Shown here in pieces: positions 827 to 20,235 of a stretch of 21,572 nt of DNA (the first letter of the stretch is position 1; each line of letters starts with the position of its first letter). The stretch comes from Saccoglossus kowalevskii. Lineage: Eukaryota > Hemichordata > Enteropneusta > Harrimaniidae. The stretch lies in NCBI RefSeq assembly GCF_000003605.2, contig NW_003134355.1, forward strand, positions 97,490 through 119,061, read 5' to 3'. Position numbers and translations under genes: made by a program. The notes below the pieces were generated by a model. The model had not been told where the DNA came from and ran no database searches. It worked only from the letters and a program-made list of their open reading frames with translations.

Positions 827-1105
827 CTAAACAAAAACACAGTGTACTTTCAAATGAGTAAACTTACAATGTAAGATAGAAATATCTCCACTGTAGCTGA
901 GATGATGTTGTATATGATGAAAAATTAGTCAAACGTGGCAGTTACAACACATCACCACCATAGCTGTTTATAGGGATGTTGCTATGGGTACTGTGTCACT
1001 AGTTTGTTTATGTATTATTATTATGATTATTATGATATGTATAATGTTTCATACATAAAACATTGTAAACATTGTTATTGTTCTTATATACCCAAATATA
1101 CTTAC
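827..1105 (-). other. Intron between the repeat exon and the downstream candidate exon
   Basis: This 279-bp interval starts with a consensus donor (AGT|GTAAGT, intron G at 1105) and ends with a pyrimidine-rich acceptor TTTGTTTAG. Nothing else was recognised inside it. Confidence 0.65.
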
Positions 1106-3838
1106 ACTTCCAGCAACAGGCTCCTGAATCTTTGAGCCTTTTTCAGAATCAGTCACTATATTTCTAACATCTAAGGCTCTTTGTGGTGTTTTTGAGACAA
1201 GTCTGTTCTGCCTGATTAACTGATAATCATTTTCATATATCCCATCAGTCTGTTGCCATCCCAAATATCCAGCTTTTCGTCTATCATTATTCTCATAGTA
1301 CTTTCTCCAGGCTTCTCTCCAAATCCTCTCTTCTTCATCATCTTGAGACTTCCATTCTTCATATTTTCTCCATGCCTCTCGCCTATGCCATTCTTTCCAC
1401 TCTGCCAGGTAGGCTCTGTATCTAATATCATCTCTATCTTCTTCACATAATGCTCTCCATTCCTCGTCTGTACCATGCCAATCTGGGATATCAACCCTTT
1501 GTCCATAGTTTTGTTTTTCGTGCCATTTACGCCAATCCTCCCTGTCCATTTTTTCATAGTACATTTTCCAAGCTTTCTGCCTATCAGCCTCTTTCGCTGC
1601 CCAGTAAGATTCCCATGCTTGCTTTCTTTTTTCTTCTGGTGTATCCCAATATCCTTCATCTCGCCCTCGTTGGAATGAATTTCTTATTCGTTGTCTCTCC
1701 AAGTGTCTTGGGTGAAAACCTAGAGGTTCATCTCGATATCTGCCATCCCATTTTCTTGGGAGAAAACCAGGAGGTTCATTTTGATGTCTGTCATGCCATT
1801 CTCTTGGGGGAGGGCCAAGAGAATTATCCGGATATCTGGCATCCCATTCTCTTGGCTGTGGACCAGGAGGTTCATCTTTATGTCTGGCATCCCATTCCCC
1901 TGGGTGAGAACCAGGAGGATCATCTCGATTTCTGACAACCCATTCCCTTGGGTGAGGACCAGGAGGTTCATCATGATGTCTGCTATCCCATTCCCTTGGG
2001 TGAGGACCAGGAGGTTCATCTTGACGCATGTCATCCCATTCCCTTGGGTAAGGACCAGGAGGCTCATTTCGATTTCTGACATCCCATTCCCTTGGGTGAG
2101 GACCAGGAGGCTCATCTCTTTTTTTGACATCCCATTCCCTTGGGTGAGGACCAGAAGGTTTGTCTTGACGCATGTCATCCCATTCCCTTGGGTGAGAACC
2201 AGGAGGCTCATCTCGATTTCTGACATCCCATTCCCTTAGGTGAGAACCAAGAGGTTTGTCTTGACGCATGTCATCCCATTTCCTTGGGTGAGGACCAGGA
2301 GGTTCATCTTGATGTCTGCTATCCCATTCCCTTGGGTGAGAGCCAGGAGGTTCATCTTGACGCATGTCATCCCATTCCCTTAGGTGAGGACCAGGAGGCT
2401 CATCTCTTTTTCTGGCATCCCATTCCCTTGGGTGAGGACCAGGAGGTTTGTCTTGACGCATGTCATCCCATTCCCTTGGGTGAGAACCAGGAGGCTCATC
2501 TCGATTTCTGACATCCCATTCCCTTAGGTGAGGACCAAGAGGTTTGTCTTGACGCATGTCATCCCATTTCCTTGGGTGAGGACCAGGAGACTTATCTCGA
2601 TTTCTGACAACCCATTCCCTTGGGTGAGGACCAGGAGGTTTGTCTTGATGCATATCATTCCATTCTCTTGGGTGAGTTCCAGGTGGTCTATCGTGATGTC
2701 TGTCATCCCATTCTTTTAAGCGCGGACCAGGAGGTTCATCTTGATATCTGCCATCCCATTCCCTTATGTGAGGACCAGGACGTTCATCGTGATGTCTGAT
2801 ATCCCATTCCCTTGGGTGAGGACCAAGAGGTTCATCTTGATGTCTGGCAACCCATTCCTTTGGGGGAGGACCAGGAGGTTCATCTCGATGTATGGCATCC
2901 CATTCCCTTGGAGGAGGACCAGGAGGTTCATCTCGATGTCTGCCATCCCATTCCCTTGGGTGAAGACTATGAGGTACATTTTGATGCCTGTCATCCCATT
3001 CTCTTGGGTGAGGTCCAGGTGGTCTATTGTGATGTCTATCATTCCATGCTCTTGGTCGAGGACCAGGAGGTTCATCTCGATGTATGGCATTCCATTCCCT
3101 TGGGCGAGGACCAGGAGGTTCATCTCCATGTCTGGCATCCCATTCCCTTGGAGGAGGACCAGGAGGTTCATCTCCATGTCTGGCATGCCATCCCTTTGGG
3201 TGAGGACCAGGAGGTTCATCTAGATGTCTGGCATCCCATTCCCTTGGATGAAGACCAGGAGGCTCATCTAGATGTCTAGCATCCCATTTCTTTGGGGGAG
3301 GACCAGGAGGTTCATCTCGATGTCTGGCATGCCATCCCTTTGGGTGAGGACCAGGAGGTTCATCTAGATGTCTGGCATCCCATTCCCTTGGGTGAGGACC
3401 AGGAGGTTCATCTCCATGTCTGGCATCCCATTCCCTTGGAGGAGGACCAGGAGGTTCATCTCCATGTCTGGCATGCCATCCCTTTGGGTGAGGACCAGGA
3501 GGTTCATCTAGATGTCTATCATCCCATTCCCTTGGATGAAGACCAGGAGGTTCATCTAGATGTCTGGCATCCCATTCCCTTGGGGGAGGACCAGGAGGTT
3601 CATTCGATTCTCTGAGCTGTAGATGTTTCTCTTGAAGTCTCACATTCACTTCTCTTGGGCAAGGACCAGGACCAGGACCAGGAGGATCTATGTGATTATA
3701 ACATTCCTGACTTTGCCCAAATGTGGGAATAGGATTCACACCTTGAAGAACTGGCTTTATCTTCTTAGCATTTTCATCAGGAGAAATATTGCCAGATTCC
3801 AAAATACTTCTTTTTGTTCTCTGATATAAGGATGACCC
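1106..3838 (-). CDS. Large internal exon: 40 tandem 16-residue Pro-rich repeats plus a Trp/Tyr-rich helical region
   Basis: The exon is 2,733 bp (911 codons), open throughout and phase 0 at both ends. It is bounded by a T-rich acceptor (TTTTTTTAG at 3839) and a perfect GTAAGT donor (1105). Codons 1-79 are a linker with a KKIKP stretch and a PPGPGPGPCPRE segment. Codons 80 to about 719 are 40 repeats of consensus EPPGPHPREWDARHxD, in which Pro-Pro-Gly, the Arg/Lys and the Trp are nearly invariant. From about 720 to 870 comes a highly charged, probably helical stretch rich in Trp and Tyr, with recurring blocks such as EAWRKYYE and KAWKMYYEK. There are no membrane segments or signal peptide. PPGPPPR-like motifs are known ligands of WW domains and PPG-hydrophobic motifs of GYF domains, so a protein-interaction role, perhaps in RNA processing, is possible. 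YLPM1-like nuclear proteins share Q-rich, P-rich and WxxY-rich composition, but I see no homology good enough to name it. Confidence 0.75.
1683..3601 (-). repeat. 48-bp coding tandem repeat, about 40 copies
   Basis: The unit is exactly 48 bp (16 codons). Thirty-nine regular units occupy 3601-1730 and a degenerate fortieth reaches about 1683. No unit breaks the reading frame. A higher-order period of six units (288 bp) appears twice: units 1-4 match 7-10 (the latter with KKWDARH and KGWHARH variants), and units 22-25 match 28-31 (RKWDDMRQD, LREWDVRNRD, SHPREWDDMRQD). This indicates repeated unequal exchange or replication slippage. Confidence 0.97.
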
Positions 3839-6800: not shown

Positions 6801-6917
6801 CTAGACTAACCCCCAAATACCGATGTTTACTTAAGCATGAAAAAATCACAGAAACATAAAACACACTGTATTTCTTAACCCATCACTACAATTGTTTTTT
6901 CTAGTTGAATGCATGCT
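3839..6917. other. Left part of the large intron, no gene recognised
   Basis: About 3 kb of AT-rich sequence begins at the acceptor (AG at 3840-3839). I see no splice-bounded coding segment. A motif TGTAACnCAAnATGnATGATCAT occurs near 4710 and near 5390, hinting at an old dispersed repeat. The open frame at 5945-6259 has no recognisable homology. A short perfect inverted repeat (AGTCTAGA / TCTAGACT, 6785-6807) lies near the right end. Confidence 0.5.
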
Positions 6918-7335
6918 GAACAAATCTGAGAGAGGTCCACATGTAGTACCTATATATGTAATATCAAAGCAATTGCACTTGCGGTTTTTAACAAGAAGTC
7001 GAAAATATCACTTTTTACCAAAAATGTCAAAAATATTCACCAAAATTAGAGAATTAAAGATATCATTACAAAATGAACAAATCTGAGAGAGGTCCACATG
7101 TAGTACCTATATATGTAATATCAAAGCAATTGCACTTGCGGTTTTTAACAAGAAGTCGAAAATATCACTTTTTACCAAAAATGACAAAAATATTCACCAA
7201 AATTAGAGAATTGAAGATATCAACATGAAATGAACAAACCTAAGAGAGGTCTACCCAAGGTACATATACACCAAGTATCAAAGCATTCAGGCTTGTAGTT
7301 TTCAAGAAGAAGTCGAAAAAGTAAAACATTGACAC
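6918..7335 (+). repeat. 157-bp tandem core repeat, about 2.6 copies
   Basis: Units begin at 6918, 7075 and 7232 with GAACAAATCTGAGAGAGG or a close variant. The first two are nearly identical through CTTGCGGTTTTTAACAAGAA and AAAATATTCACCAAAATTAG. The third diverges and is cut short by the microsatellite-bearing tail. It is the core of element 1. Confidence 0.93.
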
Positions 7336-7374: not shown

Positions 7375-7405
7375 AGCTCCGCTCGACAAAGTCGACAGCG
7401 GAGCT
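7375..7405 (+). repeat. Terminal hairpin of element 1
   Basis: Arms 7375-7383 (AGCTCCGCT) and 7397-7405 (AGCGGAGCT) are perfect inverted repeats, with a further inner pairing CGAC/GTCG around an AAA loop. The 3' arm runs directly into CTAAAAA. The arm's 12-mer GACAGCGGAGCT also occurs at 15924-15935. Confidence 0.9.
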
Positions 7406-7629
7406 AAAAAGAGGGACCAAGATGATCCAAGTAATTACATAGGGATAGCAGTTTCCAGTTGTGTAGGTAAAATGTAGCATAATTTATAACAGAATATATC
7501 AATTTACAGAAACAAATAATATAATAAATAATAATCAAGCAGGTTTCAGGAAAGAATACCGTACCACTGATCAAATCTTGTTTTAAAAACAATTGTTAAT
7601 AAATATCTTAAACAAAAAGGAAAACTATA
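7406..7629 (+). mobile_element. LINE-A, piece 1 (early reverse transcriptase domain)
   Basis: Plus-strand frames, with stops and shifts, encode the early RT region: DPSNYIGIAVSSCVGKM, then NNNQAGFRKEYRTTDQILF, then LNKYLKQKGK-like residues. The same order appears in the minus-strand copy at 20.0-19.7 kb. The reading breaks at 7629 where an inverted LINE fragment is inserted, and resumes at 8439 with the next RT block. The copy is clearly dead. Confidence 0.8.
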
Positions 7630-8438
7630 GTATATTTTATTTCGCACGAAATAATGCATTGAATTACCATATTTAAAAATTCTATACGACTATTTTTAAT
7701 TTCAATATTTTCACAGTCCATGAATGCATGAGATTCACTGCCAACAGACCCTAGATCACATAGTGTACAATTTTTTTCTTCTGGAGGTATTCCTTGATAT
7801 CTCAACTTTTCAATTGGAAGTGAATGAGCTGAAAATCTAAACCTAGTTAAGCTGGTTCGATGTTTCATATTTTTCATAAGGTCCAAGTATGGCTCAAATT
7901 TGAATGCTAATTTTAATTTGTTGTATGTTCGTAATTTGTTATTTTCTGCTTTTTGTAGACTTTGCAACCAAATATTTTCTACATACAATTGTTTTAACTT
8001 TGTTTTAAAATTTGAAATATCAATAACGAGTTTCAGTAATTTCAAGCAGTTTATTAATAAATGCTGTCCAAGTATTACCGGTACTATTTTTTTCTTGGTT
8101 GAAAGCAGAACACACCAATTTGTTACATTTATAATTCTTAAGTCTTTTCCAGAATTTCAGCATATGTGTGCAGAGTTCAATAATAATAGGGTAGCATCCC
8201 AACTCTGCTCTGACAGCATTATTGCTTGCTTTCTTATGTACACCCAAGACCTGCTTACAGAATTTGATGTGAAGCTGTTCAAATTGGGTTTTGTCACTAA
8301 ACAATTTTTCAATGAATGCTTAATTAGTCATAATACCACTTTGTTTTGTACAATTTAAAAGTGAAAGCACCCCATACTTCTGACCCATACATGATAATTG
8401 GTAACACTACTTTTAAAAAGATGAATGGCATTTTTGGG
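7630..8438 (-). mobile_element. LINE-B: inverted 3' fragment inserted in LINE-A
   Basis: The minus strand encodes a LINE C-terminal region. IIMYGSEVWG (near 8390) is followed by two open frames overlapping with a shift (8304-8020 and 8045-7608). They carry the post-RT region, RFRFSAHSLPIEK, and a C-terminal CCHC-like knuckle (CTLC...ESHAFMDC). Its 3' end has an AATAAA just before 7630. The LINE-A sequence at the two junctions, GGAAAACTATA (7619-7629) and GGAAATATATA (8439-8449), agrees at 9 of 11 bases and looks like a target-site duplication. It is 5'-truncated, degenerate and more diverged than the other LINE copies here. Confidence 0.8.
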
Positions 8439-8682
8439 GGAAATATATACTTGCTTTGTCGACTTCCAAAAAGCATTTGATAGTGTTTGGAGGAACAGAT
8501 TATGTTATAAATAACTAACCAATGGTATTGATGGGAAAATATACAATTTAATTAAGAACTTGTATGACAATACAAAAACATGCATTCGTTTCGGAAATAA
8601 AATTACACCTTTATTTGAGACAAGTAAAGGTGTAAGGCAGGGGTGTGTGATCAGTCCCAGTGCTCTCTACGTGTTGATTTGG
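8439..8682 (+). mobile_element. LINE-A, piece 2 (RT motif FVDFQKAFDS to GVRQGCVISP)
   Basis: The plus strand encodes CFVDFQKAFDSVWRN, the RT block holding the first catalytic Asp, then NLIKNLYDNTKTCIRFGN and GVRQGCVISP. It contains at least one in-frame stop. The exact right boundary is uncertain: an LYV-like remnant extends to about 8682 before unrelated sequence begins. Confidence 0.85.
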
Positions 8683-9495
8683 TAGGGCGGGCTGCCATGG
8701 TAAAATCATATGCCGCTAGGATAAATATCGCGCCGCTAGGGTAAAATTCTTCAGCGTCATGCTAAAATGACCAAATATAATCCTGCATAAGTATAAATTC
8801 AAAGTGTTTTAATACATTAGTGAGAGGTCGCATTTTACATGAACAAGAAAATGCACTAAGAAGGAAAAGCAAGCCGGAGTCGAAACAGGGTGTATCATGG
8901 ACTTGGTACAACATGCTCTGCAACAATTGAGTAATCGTCAACATCATTTTGGGGCGCAATTGAACTTCAAGTACTTTGCGTAACTTGATACGCGGCGATG
9001 CTGACATCAAGTGAGTGTTAACCAAAGTTTGATCCCAAGTCACGCACTGAACTGGCGCGTTACCTTAGCAACCCTTTTCTTTCACTCAACTTGTATGCAA
9101 CTCTGTTTTGGCTTTGAATATTTCAACATCGTTTACTTAATGTGCTGCTTTTCTAATAACGCAAATACATTTTAACTCACAAATACCATGAACGCAAAGA
9201 GTTAACTGAAAAACAACGTAATTTTTTAACATAAGTCAAGGCATTAGGTAAGCAATAGACTAGAGCAGTTGGGGCGATTAATTTGTTTTTGTAGTTTCAA
9301 TAAAAAAAAATCTTATCAATTTTTTGCATTGCCGGTGCATTTTACGATGAAAAATTGCCTTGAGGTTGCCAAGATTTACGCCGGGGAAACTTCCCAGATT
9401 GCATCTAAAGGCATCTAAATTTCAAAACTTTTTTCGGGGGAGGTCCCCCAGACTCTCCCTTGCTCGCCAGGCTAATTTTTAACCCGTGGAAAACA
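8683..9495. mobile_element. Unclassified ~0.8-kb insert splitting LINE-A
   Basis: Both sides are LINE-A RT sequence (ISPS..LYV on the left; SPILFNLYVND on the right), so this block is probably an insertion. It is richer in CpG than its flanks, has no coding homology I recognise, and contains a short G/C inverted repeat (GGGGGAGGTCCCCC, around 9436). A minus-strand frame at 9043-8762 is not recognised. Similar AGTCC-containing sequence at both junctions (8653 and 9499) could be a decayed target duplication. I see no terminal repeats that classify it. Confidence 0.5.
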
Positions 9496-9592
9496 CTGAG
9501 TCCAATACTTTTTAATCTGTATGTAAATGATTTAAATAGTACATTAGAAGATGATACTTCAGTAGACCAGGTTACATTAAATAATAACAAGC
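9496..9592 (+). mobile_element. LINE-A, piece 3 (SPILFNLYVND block)
   Basis: The plus strand encodes LSPILFNLYVNDLNS, then LEDDTSVDQVTLNN. This lines up with the minus-strand copy (SPTLFNLYVNDM, LEDRSLDQVTLH). It breaks just before the expected YADD block, which reappears at 10990, so element 2 sits inside the RT domain. Confidence 0.85.
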
Positions 9593-9719
9593 CATGCATA
9601 GCACAGTCCTGTTAGTTATCAAATTTAAGATATATAGTTTTGTTTACAGTAATATAGCTGGAATATAACCATGTCAGGAATATGATTTTTTAACATTAAA
9701 ATGATTGACATTTGTATCT

Positions 9720-10810
9720 GATCGTCAAACAAGTACTTGTCCATATTGAGAGATATTGCTCTGGAACAGCATTTAAAATCAGCCATTTTGAGTACATGTA
9801 TATATACAAATAACATGATGTATAATGAATATATAAAATTTGAATATAATCAGTCAAAGCATTTAAGAGATATGGCTCTAGAAGCCCAATCATTAAAACA
9901 AAATGGCCACCAGTCAGCCATTTTGAATCCAATCTGAAAAATAAATGTGCATCAAAAACCTGTAATGTCTGTAATGTCTTATCAAGTTTGAACAAAATCC
10001 ATCCATAAATGCCAGAAACGCTTGATATTTGATGATTTTTTAGCACAAAAATGGCCACCATTTGGTCACTTTGAATAGGATCGTCAAACCAATACATCTG
10101 TCTATCTATGACATGATGTATAATGAATATTTAAAATTTGAACATAATTAAAATTTGAACCACATTAATTAAAACAAAATGGCCGCCAGTCGGCCATTTT
10201 GAATCTAATCTGAAAAACAAGGTCCCCTAATGTCCAATTTATATACCAAGTTTGAACAAAATCCATCTGTAAACAGCTGAGAAATGCTTGATTTTTATTA
10301 TTTTTTAGAACAAAAATGGCCGCCATTCGGCCATCTTGAATCAGATCGTAAAACAAAATGATGTGCATCAAGGTCCTATAATGTCTAACGTATATACAAT
10401 GTTTGAACAAAATCCATCTGTAAACAGCAGGGAAATGCTTGATTTTGATGGTTTTTTAGCACAAAAATGCCCACCATTGGGCCATTTTTAATAGAATCGT
10501 CAAACTAATATATCTGTCTATCAATGACATGATCCATAATGAATATTTAAAATCTGAACATAATCAGTCAAAGCAAGTCAGAGATATGGCACTAGAACCA
10601 CATTTATTAAAACAAAATAGCCGCCAGTTGGCATTTTGAATCTTATCTGAAAAACAAAATGATGTTCATCAAGGTCCTATAATGTCTAATGTATATACCA
10701 ATTTTGAACAAAATCCATCTGTAAACAGCCGAAAAATGCTTTATTTTGATGATTTTTAGCACAAAAATGGCCGCCATGGTCATTCTGAATCAGATCGTGA
10801 AACAAATTGA
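9720..10810 (+). repeat. Alternating A/B tandem units of element 2
   Basis: Two related half-unit types alternate as A-B-A-B-B-A-B. Type A carries CATGATGTATAATGAATAT and type B carries TTTGAACAAAATCCATCTGT. Each ends in a palindromic box of the form AAAATGGCC, about 7 nt, GGCCATTTT, then GAATC. Boxes start at 9900, 10047, 10176, 10314, 10464, 10614 and 10764, with the last four spaced exactly 150 bp apart. Confidence 0.9.
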
Positions 10811-10954
10811 TGTGCATATGTATAATATCATGTATGATGTATGTGTGAAGTTTGATTGTGATTGGTCCAGGCATTTCTAAGATACAGGTTCGGATGCACG
10901 CACGGAAGCACACGCACGCACGCACAGACACAGACACACAGAGGTAAAAACATA

Positions 10955-10988
10955 AGTCCCTGTTTTCGGACTGCGTTCAACAGGGACT
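10955..10988 (+). repeat. Terminal hairpin of element 2
   Basis: Perfect 10-bp arms AGTCCCTGTT (10955-10964) and AACAGGGACT (10979-10988) enclose a 14-nt loop. The last bases of the arm plus the next two form CTAA, as in elements 1 and 3. LINE-A coding sequence resumes immediately afterwards. Confidence 0.9.
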
Positions 10989-10989
10989 A

Positions 10990-12332
10990 ATAAGATTAGC
11001 TCATTATTCTATGCAGATGATTTGGTATTAATTTCAAAAACAAATACAGGATTGCAGAATGACTGTTGCAGAATGTTTAATGACTACTGCTATAAATGGA
11101 ATCTCCATGTTAATCTCACAAAAACAAAAGTAATAATTTTCAGAAAAGGATCAATGAAGAGCAGAGATGCATTTTATTACCAAAGTCACAACATAAGTTG
11201 TGTTAATACTTACATCTATCTTGGTATCTTTATTCAATCTAATGGTGAATTTAATGAAACCAGAAAATACCAGATAAAGCTACTAGAGCTATGTATGTGA
11301 AATCATTACCAAAAGAGGCTAACTGTAGAACATATCTACACTTATTTCAAGCATGTGTAGGGCCAATACTGTTATATGGTTGTAACGTTTGGGTGGTGAC
11401 ATTTTGGAAAACTCAAAATGGGACAAAACAAGTATTGAACAAGTACATATAAAATTTTGCAAACAGTTATTGGAGGTAAGTAAGCTCTCTTCAAATGGAG
11501 CAAATAGAACTGAACTTGGTGAATTCCCACTGTTGATTGATATTAAGGGAAATCATATAAAATAATGGTCTTGTATCGAAGAGCTTCCAGAACACATTCT
11601 CACAAAACATGCCTTTCATGAACAGAAGAAGTTAAACTTGCCATGGATGAAGTCTGTTTAAAAATTGATAAATAAAAGATATTATATCGATGAATAATCT
11701 GTCAGACTTATCACCCAGGGATATTAAACTTATTATCAACAACATCAAAGAAAAATTTATGGATTGGTGGAAAGTAACCATAAGCAACCAAAATGGCAAA
11801 CTCAGAACATACGCAAAACTAAAACAAACATACAGCTATGAAAAATATTTAGACACTCTTAATTTAAAACAAAGACATTGCATATCCAGATTTAGAATTA
11901 GCAAGCATCCATTAGCAATAGAGAAAGGCAGACATACTCAACCAAAGACACCCCTAGGAAATAGATTATGTATACATTGATCAGAGAACAAAATAAAAAA
12001 TGAGGTACATTTTTTCATGGAATGTCCAAAATATTACAATAACAGGCAAAAACTATCGAGAGATGTAATAATTCCAAACACAGCCCACAACATTAATCAG
12101 AAATTGATATACCTGATGAGTTGCAATGATGTTGAAATTATAAAGCAAGTGGGTGAATATGTATATGCCATATTTGACATTAGAACAGAACATCCAATTA
12201 AAAGATAATTCTTACTTTTATCATTTCTTTTTTTTTTCTTTTGTGCATTTTTCATTTTTTTTATGTATTGCTTTTAACTGATAAAAAATTAATTTCAAGG
12301 ATGCAATAAAAATTTTTATTATTATTAGAAAG
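10990..12332 (+). mobile_element. LINE-A, piece 4 (YADD to 3' end)
   Basis: FYADDLVLIS (11007-11036) is the RT catalytic box. It is followed by GLQNDCCRMFNDYC and NLTKTKVIIFRKGS in frame to 11300, then frameshifted segments (VGPILLYGCNVW near 11350), an open stretch 11690-11980 (RFRISKHPLAIEKGRH) and 12017-12208 (MECPKYY...). The first half of the C-terminal zinc knuckle is broken by a stop after LCIH. The 3' end is AT-rich, with AATAAA and a short ATT microsatellite at about 12310-12332. It is a dead copy, closely related to the minus-strand LINE at 18-20 kb. Confidence 0.85.
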
Positions 12333-13764: not shown

Positions 13765-14312
13765 CTGAAAAGTTTTTTCAATCAACTATAATAACTTTTG
13801 TAATTTTTACTATGTAAATTCGTAAATGATTATTGTTCATGTATGACTGTTGATCCAGAAAAACGGAAACAATTTTACACAGTTTCACCCCTGACATTTT
13901 AGTTCATTTTGAGTTCACGCATATTGGGCGTGTTTGTGACGGGGAAATCCTAATTCAAATAATTCCTTACTGTCGATTTTTATTATTTCTGGTTTATTTG
14001 TCACATTATAAGCAATAAATTATTTTTGTTATACTTCTAATGTTGCATATTGTTCATTTATTTCCGTTGCATGTTTTCATTTGTCATTCTATTCCCTACC
14101 GCAGTTTGATCTGCATGTTGTCCATTTTTGCATATTTTTGTTTTTTGCCGAGGATGTCCGGGCATACGCCCACCCCTATTTTCTTGCATTTTTCCATGTT
14201 CAGAAACTTGGGTGCTTACCTGGACAACTACAAAAATTCTTTTGGAGTTTAAACGCACCTCTATAGTGCAGCAAAATAAGTAAACAAAATAAATCAACAC
14301 TCAAATTCTTAC
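13765..14312. other. Intronic interval upstream of the candidate exon
   Basis: AT-rich, with no gene recognised. It begins at the strong donor (CAAGAG|GTAAGA, intron G at 14312) of the polyQ exon. Short open frames at 14040-14300 on both strands lack homology and splice support. Confidence 0.5.
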
Positions 14313-14979
14313 CTCTTGGTGGATTCTTTTACTATTATTATCAGATGTCAGTTTCATAGGATCTGATTGAGTACCAGTATAATCCACAATGCCCTCTACA
14401 AACTCTGATTGTTGTGGACTCTTCTGTGATTGGTTTACAATAGATTGTAGAGATGCAGCTTGATATGTCGGATATTTAGTTATTAAATGATTGTAGTAAA
14501 CCATATCAGGTAATGGATTAGATGGACGACCTGGTGGAGGTGGTGGTGGTGGGGGAGAAACACTCAGCAGTTCATCTCGCTTACACAGTAGAATGTCTTG
14601 TGATAATTTTGCCTGAATGTCTTTCAAATGAGCATATTTTGTAGAATCACCACTTGCAGACTGCAGAGAACCTTCAACTACCCTCAACATATGTCTAATA
14701 TTATCAGAATGTGTCTGCATTGATATAACAGGATTTGTTGGAGGTGAGCTAAAAGGGTTTGTTGGTTGTGAATATGCAGCAACAACAGCAGATTGTGAGT
14801 GTGCAGCAACAGTCGCAGAAGGTTGAGAGTTTGCAGTGATAGCTTCTCGTTTTTGCTTTTCTATTAAGTCATGTAACTGTGAATTGAACTGCTGCTGAAG
14901 TACCATCATTAGTTGCATAACTTGACTAGAAGACTGTTGTTGTTGTTGTTGTTGCTGTTGTTGTTGTTGTTGTTGAGGC

Positions 14980-15011
<32 letters not shown>

Positions 15012-15049
15012 CTGATAGTCAGTTAAGATTTGTTGAGGGGTCCCAGGAA
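14313..15049 (-). CDS. Exon with a polyQ tract, coiled Gln-rich segment and polyproline run
   Basis: The exon is 737 bp, entered in phase 1 after CTTTTGCAG and left in phase 0 at CAAGAG|GTAAGA. It encodes PGTPQQILTDY, then Q12-P-Q14, SSSQV, a probable helix (MQLMMVLQQQFNSQLHDLIEK), alternating Ala/Ser/Gln/Pro segments, an 8-proline run, and a conserved-looking tail with YYNHLITKYPTYQAAS. The composition is that of a nuclear, low-complexity scaffold protein. The spliced product would run into further exons; joining directly to 3838 preserves phase 0. The first in-frame Met in this exon is at 14918, but the frame continues upstream into the 28-nt micro-exon, so the true start is probably further 5'. 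No family could be named. Confidence 0.75.
14934..15014 (-). repeat. CAG/CAA repeat encoding Q12-P-Q14
   Basis: Twenty-seven codons mix CAG and CAA, with a single CCT (Pro) interruption. The downstream block is mostly CAA, whereas the upstream block is mostly CAG. The interruptions should reduce pure-triplet slippage. Confidence 0.97.
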
Positions 15050-16095
15050 CTGCAAAAGATTAAATTACAAGTGGCTAAGTTTGGGGTTCTTATAATACAC
15101 TTGCAACATGTTTTTTTGTCTACTGTATATTCATTTGTTTTTTTTTCAAAATGAATGGCGGAACTATATCTCCAGACATCCTGCCAGTGTTTGTTGGTGT
15201 CCATTTTAATTCAATTCGGCAAGTGGATACATGTCTGTGAAAAAAATGATTGTTATCGTCCAGAATCTCCACTACAAGAATTATGTTTTACTTTCAGTAA
15301 TTTGTGTCAATCAGGGATGTGGTTGATTATGTTTATTTACATTCGGAACACGAGGCACGCTATAAGTATAAAATGAAGAATTCTGGGTCACCAGGCGCCA
15401 AAATCCGTTTTCGAACACATAATCGACTGTTCATTTAATCAGAAGAGAATTCTCAGGAAGCAATCTGTGTTTTGGTTCAGTTTGCTGAAGTCGAGAGTGG
15501 AAAACATCGTACTACGGTAGCATCACTGGTACGAGCTTACAAATACTGTACTGGGAAGGCTTGTAGTGGCACTAGTACACAGGGTATTGTTATAGCGAGT
15601 GCATTTCACTTCTACTACAAATATACCTTTCTGGCGCACATTGCCACTTTTTCCTGTAGTCTGGGGCCGACAACTCGAACCATTGGCTTTCAGATTTGGA
15701 TTCGACGCCATCTTGAGAGTGTGTGTCTGCACTTTCGTTCCTCCACAGCGAACACTTAGCTTGTCCTAAGGTCAACAGTTGAAACAAGGTACGAGTGGAA
15801 CTCAATTTATTGCAAGAAATGTACGATGTCGTGTGCATGCGAAACATATTGCAAGAAAGACAAACTCAAATGATTAAAAAAAAACGTTATTTAAAAATAA
15901 ACAATAAAGTAATTAAATCTGATGACAGCGGAGCTTACTTGTCCAGTACTTACGTGCATGTTTCTATGTCATGTTTTATATTGCATGGTCTAAAAACTTT
16001 GGGGTCCTGTAATTGTTGAAATTCAACAACTAATTTTGACCATTTGAATCAAAACAGTCAAAGTCAAATCTGCAATAGACAAGATAGATAGTTAC
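15050..16095 (-). other. Intron between micro-exon and polyQ exon
   Basis: About 1.05 kb bounded by GGAG|GTAACT and TTTTGCAG. The stretch 15400-15780 has more G+C and CpG than its surroundings and is open on both strands for 70-95 codons, with no recognised homology. The 12-mer GACAGCGGAGCT at 15924-15935 is identical to the 3' hairpin arm of element 1. Confidence 0.6.
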
Positions 16096-18069: not shown

Positions 18070-20235
18070 TCAATTTACACAAACATAAAATTCTCGGTTA
18101 ATTAAAAACTTAATACGCTGGAAATTACAGAAAACGTAAAAAATAGAAAAAAAAAGAGTCAAAGAGATCTCATTTCTTAAAATGAATGATTTATGTAAAC
18201 AATCCTGTAATTACTTTTCATTAAATATGTGAATTTTTGCAGGTTGGTAATGATTTCTTTGAAGAATAAAATTTGGAAATAAAATAATTTGTATCTGTTT
18301 GATATCGTGGACAAACTTCCTGTAATGGGCATTTTTTACAAATTCTATTTTCTAATGAGGTTTTTGGATTGGTATGTCTGCCTTTTTCAATGGCTAGATT
18401 GGGACTACTTGTCCTGAATCTAGCCAATGATATTCTTTGATTACTATCCAAAACATTAAGGTAATTTTCCAGATTGTAATTCATTTTAAATTTAATGTAT
18501 GTTCTCAGTTTTTTTTATTTGTCATATTCTCTCTCCAGTATGTTATGTATTGTTGTTTAATAGTGCTGCTCATTGCCTTAATATTTTGATGTGATACCTG
18601 TGATGTTTTAAAGAGGTGTAGCGGTGTAGATGTAGATCTTTCAAGATATTTTTGACTGATGTTTCGCAATGTGCTTTTGACAAAGTCTGATCGCTTAACG
18701 ACATATTTGTATAATTATTTTGTGACTTGTCTGTGACATGGGACCAGAACTTAATTATATTAATTTTCACTTCAGTTATCAATGGAAATGCTCCAATTTC
18801 ACCTCGACATGCACTATTCGCTGTGTATTTATTAAGCCCAGGTAGTTGTTTAATGAATTTTAGATGCACTTTTCTGTTTTAGTTTTGTCCCAGTTATTGT
18901 TACTCATATTTTCCATTCCCCAAATTTCAGATCCATACAGTAAGATTGGTTTGATACTTATATTAAACAGATGGATGTATGTTTTACAGTCTGTTTCTTT
19001 TGGTAAAGACTGCTTTAGTGCATACATGGCTTTGATTGTTTTATCTGCTAGATTGTCTCTAGCTTCTGTAAATTTACCATTTGACTGAAAAATTATCCTA
19101 AGATAATTGTATGAGTTGACACAGCAAAGTTTCTCATTTTGATAATAGAATTTTTCATGTCTATGTAGTGTTCCCCTTCTGAATATAAGAGTTTTAGTTT
19201 TCGCAAGATTTACTTTGATTTTCCATTTTTGGCAATAATCTTGCAGTTTATTTAATGCATTTTGTAGGCCTTTTTCTGTTATTGAAATTAGCACCAGATC
19301 ATCGTCGTAAAGTAGCGAGCTAATTAGTGTCATGTAGTGTGACCTGATCAAGGGATCTGTCTTCCAAGTATTCATTCATATCATTCACATATAAATTAAA
19401 TAATGTGGGGCTTATAACACAGTCTTGTCTCACAGTGGCGGATCCAGCATGCGTAATCCATCTGGATCCGCCACTGTTGTCTCACACCTTTTGTTGTCTC
19501 AAATATATTTGTGATTGTGTTTTCTAAACGAATGCATGCTTTCGTATTACGCTACATATTTTTAATAATATTATAGATATTGCCATTTATTTCATTTTTG
19601 ATTAATTTGTAAAACAAGCCGTCACGCCAGACACTATCGAATGCTTTTTGGAAGTCTATAAAGCATGCATATAATTTTCCATTTAGCTGGAGATATTTTT
19701 AACAATTGTATTCAGTACAAAAATGTGGTCTGTTGTGCGGTGACCTTTACGGAACCCTGCTTGATTATTGTTAATGATGTTATTTATTTCAAGGTATTGG
19801 GTAATTCTATTATTTATTATAGTACAGAATGTTTTTCCCACACGACTTGATACATCTATTCCCCCGGTAGTTTCCTGGGTCGTGCGAATCACCCTTTTTA
19901 TAGACGTGTGAAATAATACTAATATTCCACGACTTTGGATAAATTCCAGACTCTAAAAATAATTAAAAAAGTTTTTTTAATGGTTTTATTAAGAAATCTG
20001 AGCTGCATTTTAAAAACTCAGAGCAGAAGCTATCATAACCAGGTGCCTTTTTATTTTTAAGTGTTTCAATAGCATTTTTTATCTCTTTTTCTGTTATTTT
20101 ATTGTTAATAAGATTATTAGATTCATTCCTGTTTTCCATAGCTGACATATCAGAAATGATATCATTTTGCAAATTTCTTTTCTTTTCACAAAATATATTT
20201 TTCTTAACTTTTTATCAAAAGGGTGTAGCACAATA
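18070..20235 (-). mobile_element. LINE-A' : minus-strand LINE copy, interrupted by a hAT-like MITE
   Basis: From right to left the minus strand encodes KKAPGYDSFCSEFLKC (about 20060), the NNNQAGFRKGHRTTDH block (about 19760), CFIDFQKAFDSVWRD (19667-19623), GVRQDCVISP split by the MITE at 19433-19476, SPTLFNLYVNDM, LLYDDDLVLIS (catalytic box, YDDD in place of YADD), KVNLAKTKTLIFRRG, NISIKPILLYGSEIWG, the post-RT region, and ARFRTSSPNLAIEKGRH with a damaged zinc knuckle (RICKKC). Several frameshifts and stops are present, and no endonuclease domain is visible, so the copy is 5'-truncated. It is the closest relative of LINE-A and lies in the opposite orientation. Confidence 0.87.
19433..19476. 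mobile_element. 44-bp hAT-like MITE with 15-bp TIRs
   Basis: Perfect inverted repeats CAGTGGCGGATCCAG (19433-19447) and CTGGATCCGCCACTG (19462-19476) enclose only 14 bp. The flanks are identical 8-bp direct repeats TTGTCTCA (19425-19432 and 19477-19484). An 8-bp duplication and a CAGTGG terminus are typical of hAT transposons. Removing the element and one duplication (52 bp) restores the LINE frame through GVRQDCVISP. Confidence 0.9.

Follow-up and report, generated by a model that had tools for sequence, protein, structure and literature searches.

The 44-bp unit at 19433–19476 of the window, the whole 21,572-nt stretch of Saccoglossus kowalevskii DNA analysed here (contig NW_003134355.1), is well supported as a genuine and unusually short insertion scar of hAT type, which together with both target site duplications spans 19425–19484. 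It lies in the reverse transcriptase region of a LINE (copy A, Table 1). Its history was probably the insertion of a longer hAT-type element that lost its middle in place and left an inert 44-bp shell. In that case it counts as an ordinary relic, chiefly useful as a clean insertion scar with an empty site in the same window. The coordinates and letters given by an earlier note on this DNA, namely 8-bp TTGTCTCA repeats, perfect 15-bp terminal inverted repeats (TIRs) and a 14-bp spacer, were all recovered as described.

The two inverted arms of the unit match perfectly over 15 bp; the inverted-repeat search itself gives 16-bp arms because the duplication begins with T and ends with A. Folded as DNA, the unit forms an 18-bp stem with a one-base bulge and a 7-nt loop (−19 kcal/mol), three base pairs (ATG/CAT) being gained past the bulge beyond the 15-bp arms. 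The z-score of this fold is −8.82, and none of 200 shuffles folds equally well. The unit thereby shows the MITE traits of inverted ends, a stable fold and, at 44 bp, no coding capacity. The letters also allow a duplication of 9 bp, TTGTCTCAC, after which the unit would start AGTGG; this reading was dropped because the symmetry of the inverted ends would be lost. Likewise, a third TTGTCTCA at 19494–19501 was dropped as a structural part: it represents the LINE's own FETTK codons, and the second LINE copy of the window (copy B) has TTTGAGACAA there.

Table 1. Coordinates of the 44-bp unit, its LINE surroundings and other features of the window, together with the look-alike palindrome of contig L042 (numbered on that contig)
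Feature	Position	Strand	Details
Left target site duplication TTGTCTCA	19425..19432		identical to 19477-19484
Left 15-bp terminal inverted repeat CAGTGGCGGATCCAG	19433..19447	+	repeat search; 13/15 identical to BmMITE-13 end
14-bp middle	19448..19461		ATG/CAT pairing in fold leaves 7-nt loop
Right 15-bp terminal inverted repeat	19462..19476	-	repeat search; complement of CAGTGGCGGATCCAG
Right target site duplication TTGTCTCA	19477..19484		identical to 19425-19432
LINE copy A, reverse transcriptase region, multiply broken; host of 44-bp unit	18863..20211	-	open pieces; weak Pfam RVT_1 matches
LINE copy B, family of copy A, uninterrupted site GVRQ|GCVISP at 8640/8641	8441..8657	+	74% identity; flank comparison; translation
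LINE copy B, pieces (whole 7405-11502)	~7405-7640, 8441-8657, 9499-9570, 10995-11502	+	other DNA between, partly tandem repeats
841-bp unit in LINE copy B	8658-9498		ends CAGTGCTCTCTACG / CAGTGTTTTCCACG, CAGTG-type, 11/14 inverted; AGTCC at 8653-8657 and 9499-9503
929-aa open frame	1049-3838	-	mostly 16-residue repeat with PPGPHPREWDARH; tryptophan-rich charged C-terminal part
252-aa open frame, long glutamine run	14301-15059	-	Pfam at E 0.001: no match
Tandem or locally repeated DNA	6917-7319 and 9809-10855		units ~157 bp and ~151 bp
34-bp palindrome of contig L042, CAGTGGCGGATC arms	1871-1904		21 nt past end of 615-aa open frame; GCTTTTT then follows; no duplication

According to the analytic estimate, a 15-bp inverted repeat that has a spacer of at most 500 and an 8-bp direct repeat immediately outside its ends is expected about 9e-7 times per window, so that the structure lies far outside what chance would give. 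A weaker form (8-bp inverted plus 8-bp direct repeats, spacer up to 500) has a mean of 0.01 per window in 100 simulated windows. With 8-bp arms and spacers of up to 5000, the 44-bp unit is the sole match in the real window, and 6-bp arms yield six further matches, each with at least 829 bp between the outer ends. A scan requiring CA(A/G)...(C/T)TG ends that agree at 10 or more of 14 positions, next to direct repeats of 5 or 8 bp, reports five units in the window, among which the 44-bp unit alone has an 8-bp repeat (simulated mean 0.1, 20 simulations).

No second copy of the 44-bp unit occurs in the 21.6-kb window, and Rfam reports no match there at gathering thresholds. In the collection viral_contigs, the exact 15-mer end has 41 single matches, none of which has a partner end (within the locus, up to 6 kb, at most 3 mismatches), so they were taken as chance. 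Patterns requiring both ends, exact and closely spaced, gave zero matches in viral_contigs and one in genome_contigs, the latter in contig L042 of an Anaerolineae metagenome-assembled genome. Both collections consist of viral and prokaryotic sequences, so the lack of relatives there is hardly informative for a family of eukaryotes.

The L042 palindrome, followed by GCTTTTT as in a terminator, lends some colour to the view that the 44-bp unit is itself an isolated palindrome or hairpin, whether a product of chance or akin to a terminator, and so does the lack of a second copy in the window and in the viral and prokaryotic collections. The L042 hairpin, however, is best read from its letters and position as a putative terminator and an unrelated look-alike of the unit. 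It was combined with 48 viral_contigs loci found with a looser pattern into a control set of short palindromes that have CAGTGGCGG ends, 49 in number: none is flanked by an 8-bp direct repeat, and the best flanks agree at 5 of 8 positions. Moreover, the empty site in copy B and the reading frame across the site, both described below, require an insertion. The related suspicion of a synthetic adaptor or assembly artefact is prompted by GGATCC within the arms, but GGATCC is also contained in the published end of BmMITE-13 (Table 1 of PMC2997013). A one-off palindrome or an artefact is thus very improbable.

As for the host, the unit splits the minus-strand LINE reverse transcriptase directly after KGVRQ, and the joined flanks read KGVRQDCVISP. 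When the unit and one copy of the duplication are removed, 50 codons are open across the site, reading ...NIFETTKGVRQDCVISPTLFNLYVND.... This joined 50-aa piece matches Pfam RVT_1 with 22.2 bits (E 1.3e-4, profile positions 104–143), under the curated cut-off of 29.6 bits, below which every piece of copy A falls. Among the unjoined pieces, the 25-aa upstream one has no match, the 36-aa downstream one has 14.1 bits, and a 53-aa downstream piece that reads into the 44-bp unit has 16.5 bits; the gain on joining is therefore real, though modest. Over copy A as a whole, the 18860–19375 piece reaches 28.6 bits, and 4 of seven further pieces match (21.3, 16.5, 15.1, and 14.1 bits, the two downstream pieces just named included). 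The claim that the unit disrupts a LINE frame restored on its removal consequently holds locally, over the 50 open codons, but not for the LINE as a whole, which has a stop at 19552–19554 and a frame change before the ISSLLYDDD block, the reverse transcriptase running in another frame from 19324. As copy A now stands, the unit did not break an otherwise intact LINE, and no working gene is implied. When the 171-aa downstream piece was used to look for LINE relatives in viral_contigs, two stretches fitted a pattern, neither of them confirmed.

The earlier note had also proposed looking for an empty site in a related LINE copy, and such a site is present in the same window. Copy B shares 74% identity with copy A across the 199 nt preceding the site and is continuous at 8640/8641: its translation runs through the site as KGVRQGCVISP with no interruption and reads ...PLFETSKGVRQGCVISP.... 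The upstream flanks of the two copies match at 47 of 60 positions, with no gap across the site. In the downstream flank, 13 of 18 positions match copy B with the unit removed, versus 7 of 18 with the unit retained. Extended to 24 nt, the comparison with the unit removed has 14 matches, a low number explained by copy B's own 841-bp insert, which begins at 8658. Automatic aligners placed the gap uncleanly, the repeat and BLAST alignments overrunning the site by 12 nt into the unit and MAFFT pairing copy B with letters of the unit, although a BLAST with different settings did end at the site, after 199 nt. The evidence for the empty site is therefore the direct comparison of flanks together with the translation of copy B. 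Copy B is a paralogous empty site, and this evidence for an insertion is independent of the reading frame and stronger than it. That the 44-bp unit is an insertion is well supported.

Regarding the kind of element, both the length of the duplication, 8 bp, and the CAGTGGCGG ends suggest the hAT superfamily. TTGTCTCA stands twice, abutting the ends, with an empty site in copy B, and the inverted ends are short and of hAT type (CAGTGGCG), being perfect over 15 bp. The unit was compared with MITEs termed Pegasus-like by the authors who described them, Pegasus being a hAT-related mosquito MITE. Position by position, 4 of 17 silkworm MITE families were examined, chosen because they have 8-bp duplications. 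These are BmMITE-13, -14, -15, and -16, for which PMC2997013 reports NNNNNNNN duplications (8 bp of any sequence) and, in its Table 1, the ends CAAGGGCGGATCCAG, CAGTGGCGGATTA, CAGTGGCGTACCTA, and CAGTGGCGGATTT, respectively. CAGTGGCGGATCCAG is identical to them at 13/15, 11/13, 11/14, and 11/13 positions. In duplication length and ends the four families thus resemble the 44-bp unit; they differ from it in being multi-copy and 263, 431, 300, and 265 bp long, against 44 bp and one known copy (PMC2997013).

The target sequence does not single out either of two hAT groups, since TTGTCTCA fits half of each published preference: nTnnnnAn of Hermes (PMC2803484; PMC10368747) at T2 only, and nnnTAnnn of Buster (PMC3517528) at T4 only. 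Mar, a Drosophila MITE of the Buster group of hAT elements, likewise has an 8-bp duplication and 11-bp ends starting with CAG, whereas it is 610 bp long and its duplication consensus is the nnnTAnnn that is half matched here; an origin by internal deletion of a full-length hAT element is proposed for Mar MITEs (PMC3517528). Hermes shares with the unit the 8-bp duplication and, if the unit is of hAT type, movement by cut-and-paste (PMC10368747), and hAT elements in general are described in PMC3942097. The plant elements hATpin, MITE-like and of hAT type with stable secondary structure, also form hairpins, a likeness given by the title of the report, and belong to a different kingdom of hosts.

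It is improbable that an element of some other superfamily with CAGTG ends, or repair with a templated hairpin filler, produced the 8-bp repeat by accident. A repair event can duplicate a few bases, and the hAT assignment is based on how similar the ends are and how long the duplication is, with no transposase known. However, filler repair gives no reason to expect perfect inverted arms of 15 bp that begin right at the duplication, and the ends match those of four published MITE families with 8-bp duplications (PMC2997013).

In the preferred history, a DNA transposon of hAT type, bearing CAGTGGCGGATCCAG ends and mobilised by a presumed transposase encoded elsewhere, would have inserted into the 8-bp site TTGTCTCA of the LINE copy, between GVRQ and DCVISP of the reverse transcriptase, and the staggered cut would have been filled in to give two 8-bp copies. 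The element would have been longer than 44 bp on arrival and later have lost its interior in place, perhaps because gap repair following an attempted excision broke off, or by deletion at the palindrome centre. Left behind would be an inert shell able to form a hairpin, made up of both tips with a junction of 14 bp between them. The observed part of this history comprises the repeats, the site of insertion, its empty counterpart in the paralogue and the likeness to published ends of MITEs with 8-bp duplications. On the opposite side, the 41 viral_contigs sites include no longer relative with CAGTGGCGGATCCAG ends, no transposase was seen, and the 14-bp middle, when inspected, contains nothing that proves a deletion junction.

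The main rival is that the 44-bp unit inserted as such, a micro-MITE of tips alone, cut and pasted by a hAT transposase; this course is possible, although it seems the less probable one. Its anatomy is complete, comprising the ends, the 8-bp duplication and the empty site. Given a persistence length of DNA of about 150 bp, however, a 44-bp duplex is stiff and synapsis of both tips would be difficult, and a single copy is known from the window and the viral and prokaryotic collections. According to PMC10368747, Hermes in cells requires about 220 bp of terminal sequence at each end, and no significant integration is seen when the full right end is paired with a left end of 50 bp. For other elements the reported needs are 200 and 150 bp (Tol2), about 100 bp per end (Tag1) and at least 200 bp (Ac). 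The studied elements, which belong to hAT families other than that of this unit, thus need about 100–220 bp per end, against 44 bp in total here. Together with the 263–431 bp of the silkworm families, these figures make the insertion of a longer element likelier than insertion at 44 bp.

In favour of insertion at 44 bp, the chemical steps take place at the very tips of hAT elements (PMC10368747), and the termini or TIRs are said to be usually all that a transposase must recognise (PMC6004678), a statement that would allow an element of tips alone and in this respect counts against the longer-element history. The size range of detectMITE is 50–800 nt (PMC4726161), so that the 44-bp unit falls short of this MITE length and such elements could be overlooked by design rather than shown absent. 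Among the literature matches listed, no hAT unit this short was recognised by title or opening of the abstract, which does not prove that none is in print. It is rather unlikely that the unit represents a 'tips-only' hAT family, cut and pasted in trans as such, without subterminal binding sites and under the 50-nt floor of detectMITE. If the 44-bp form did move, it would contradict the view that long ends with subterminal repeats are needed by hAT transposases, and detectors with a 50-nt floor would miss such elements. To our knowledge, a mobile 44-bp unit would also be smaller than any eukaryotic cut-and-paste element of its kind known so far. The label 'hAT-like MITE' of the earlier note is accordingly sound as to a hAT-type insertion, given the ends, the 8-bp duplication and the empty paralogous site, but not as to the mobility of the 44-bp form, which is opposed by the published hAT end requirements and for which no second copy turned up in the window or the viral and prokaryotic collections.

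As for the age of the insertion, the duplications (8 pairs) and the arms (15 pairs) show no differences, which over 46 site-lineages bounds the divergence per lineage below about 6.5% (95%). In addition, the two arms of a hairpin may be corrected against one another. A recent insertion, as proposed from the perfect repeats, is possible: the repeats are indeed identical at all 23 positions, but the bound is a weak limit.

Among the neighbouring features, the 929-aa open frame has no Pfam match at E 0.001, and its 16-residue repeat corresponds to a 48-bp unit present in 39.6 copies at 1707–3608. The 841-bp unit of copy B belongs to the 5-bp-repeat units of the end scan, of which the window holds four versus a simulated mean of 1.35 (20 simulations), so that it is weak by repeat statistics; it is supported because of its exact LINE junction, the reverse transcriptase frame joining as GCVISPILFNLYVNDLN once it is removed. 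It sits 13–17 nt downstream of the copy B site homologous to the 44-bp insertion. The occurrence of two CAGTG-ended insertions near one reverse transcriptase motif in two LINE copies may be a coincidence.
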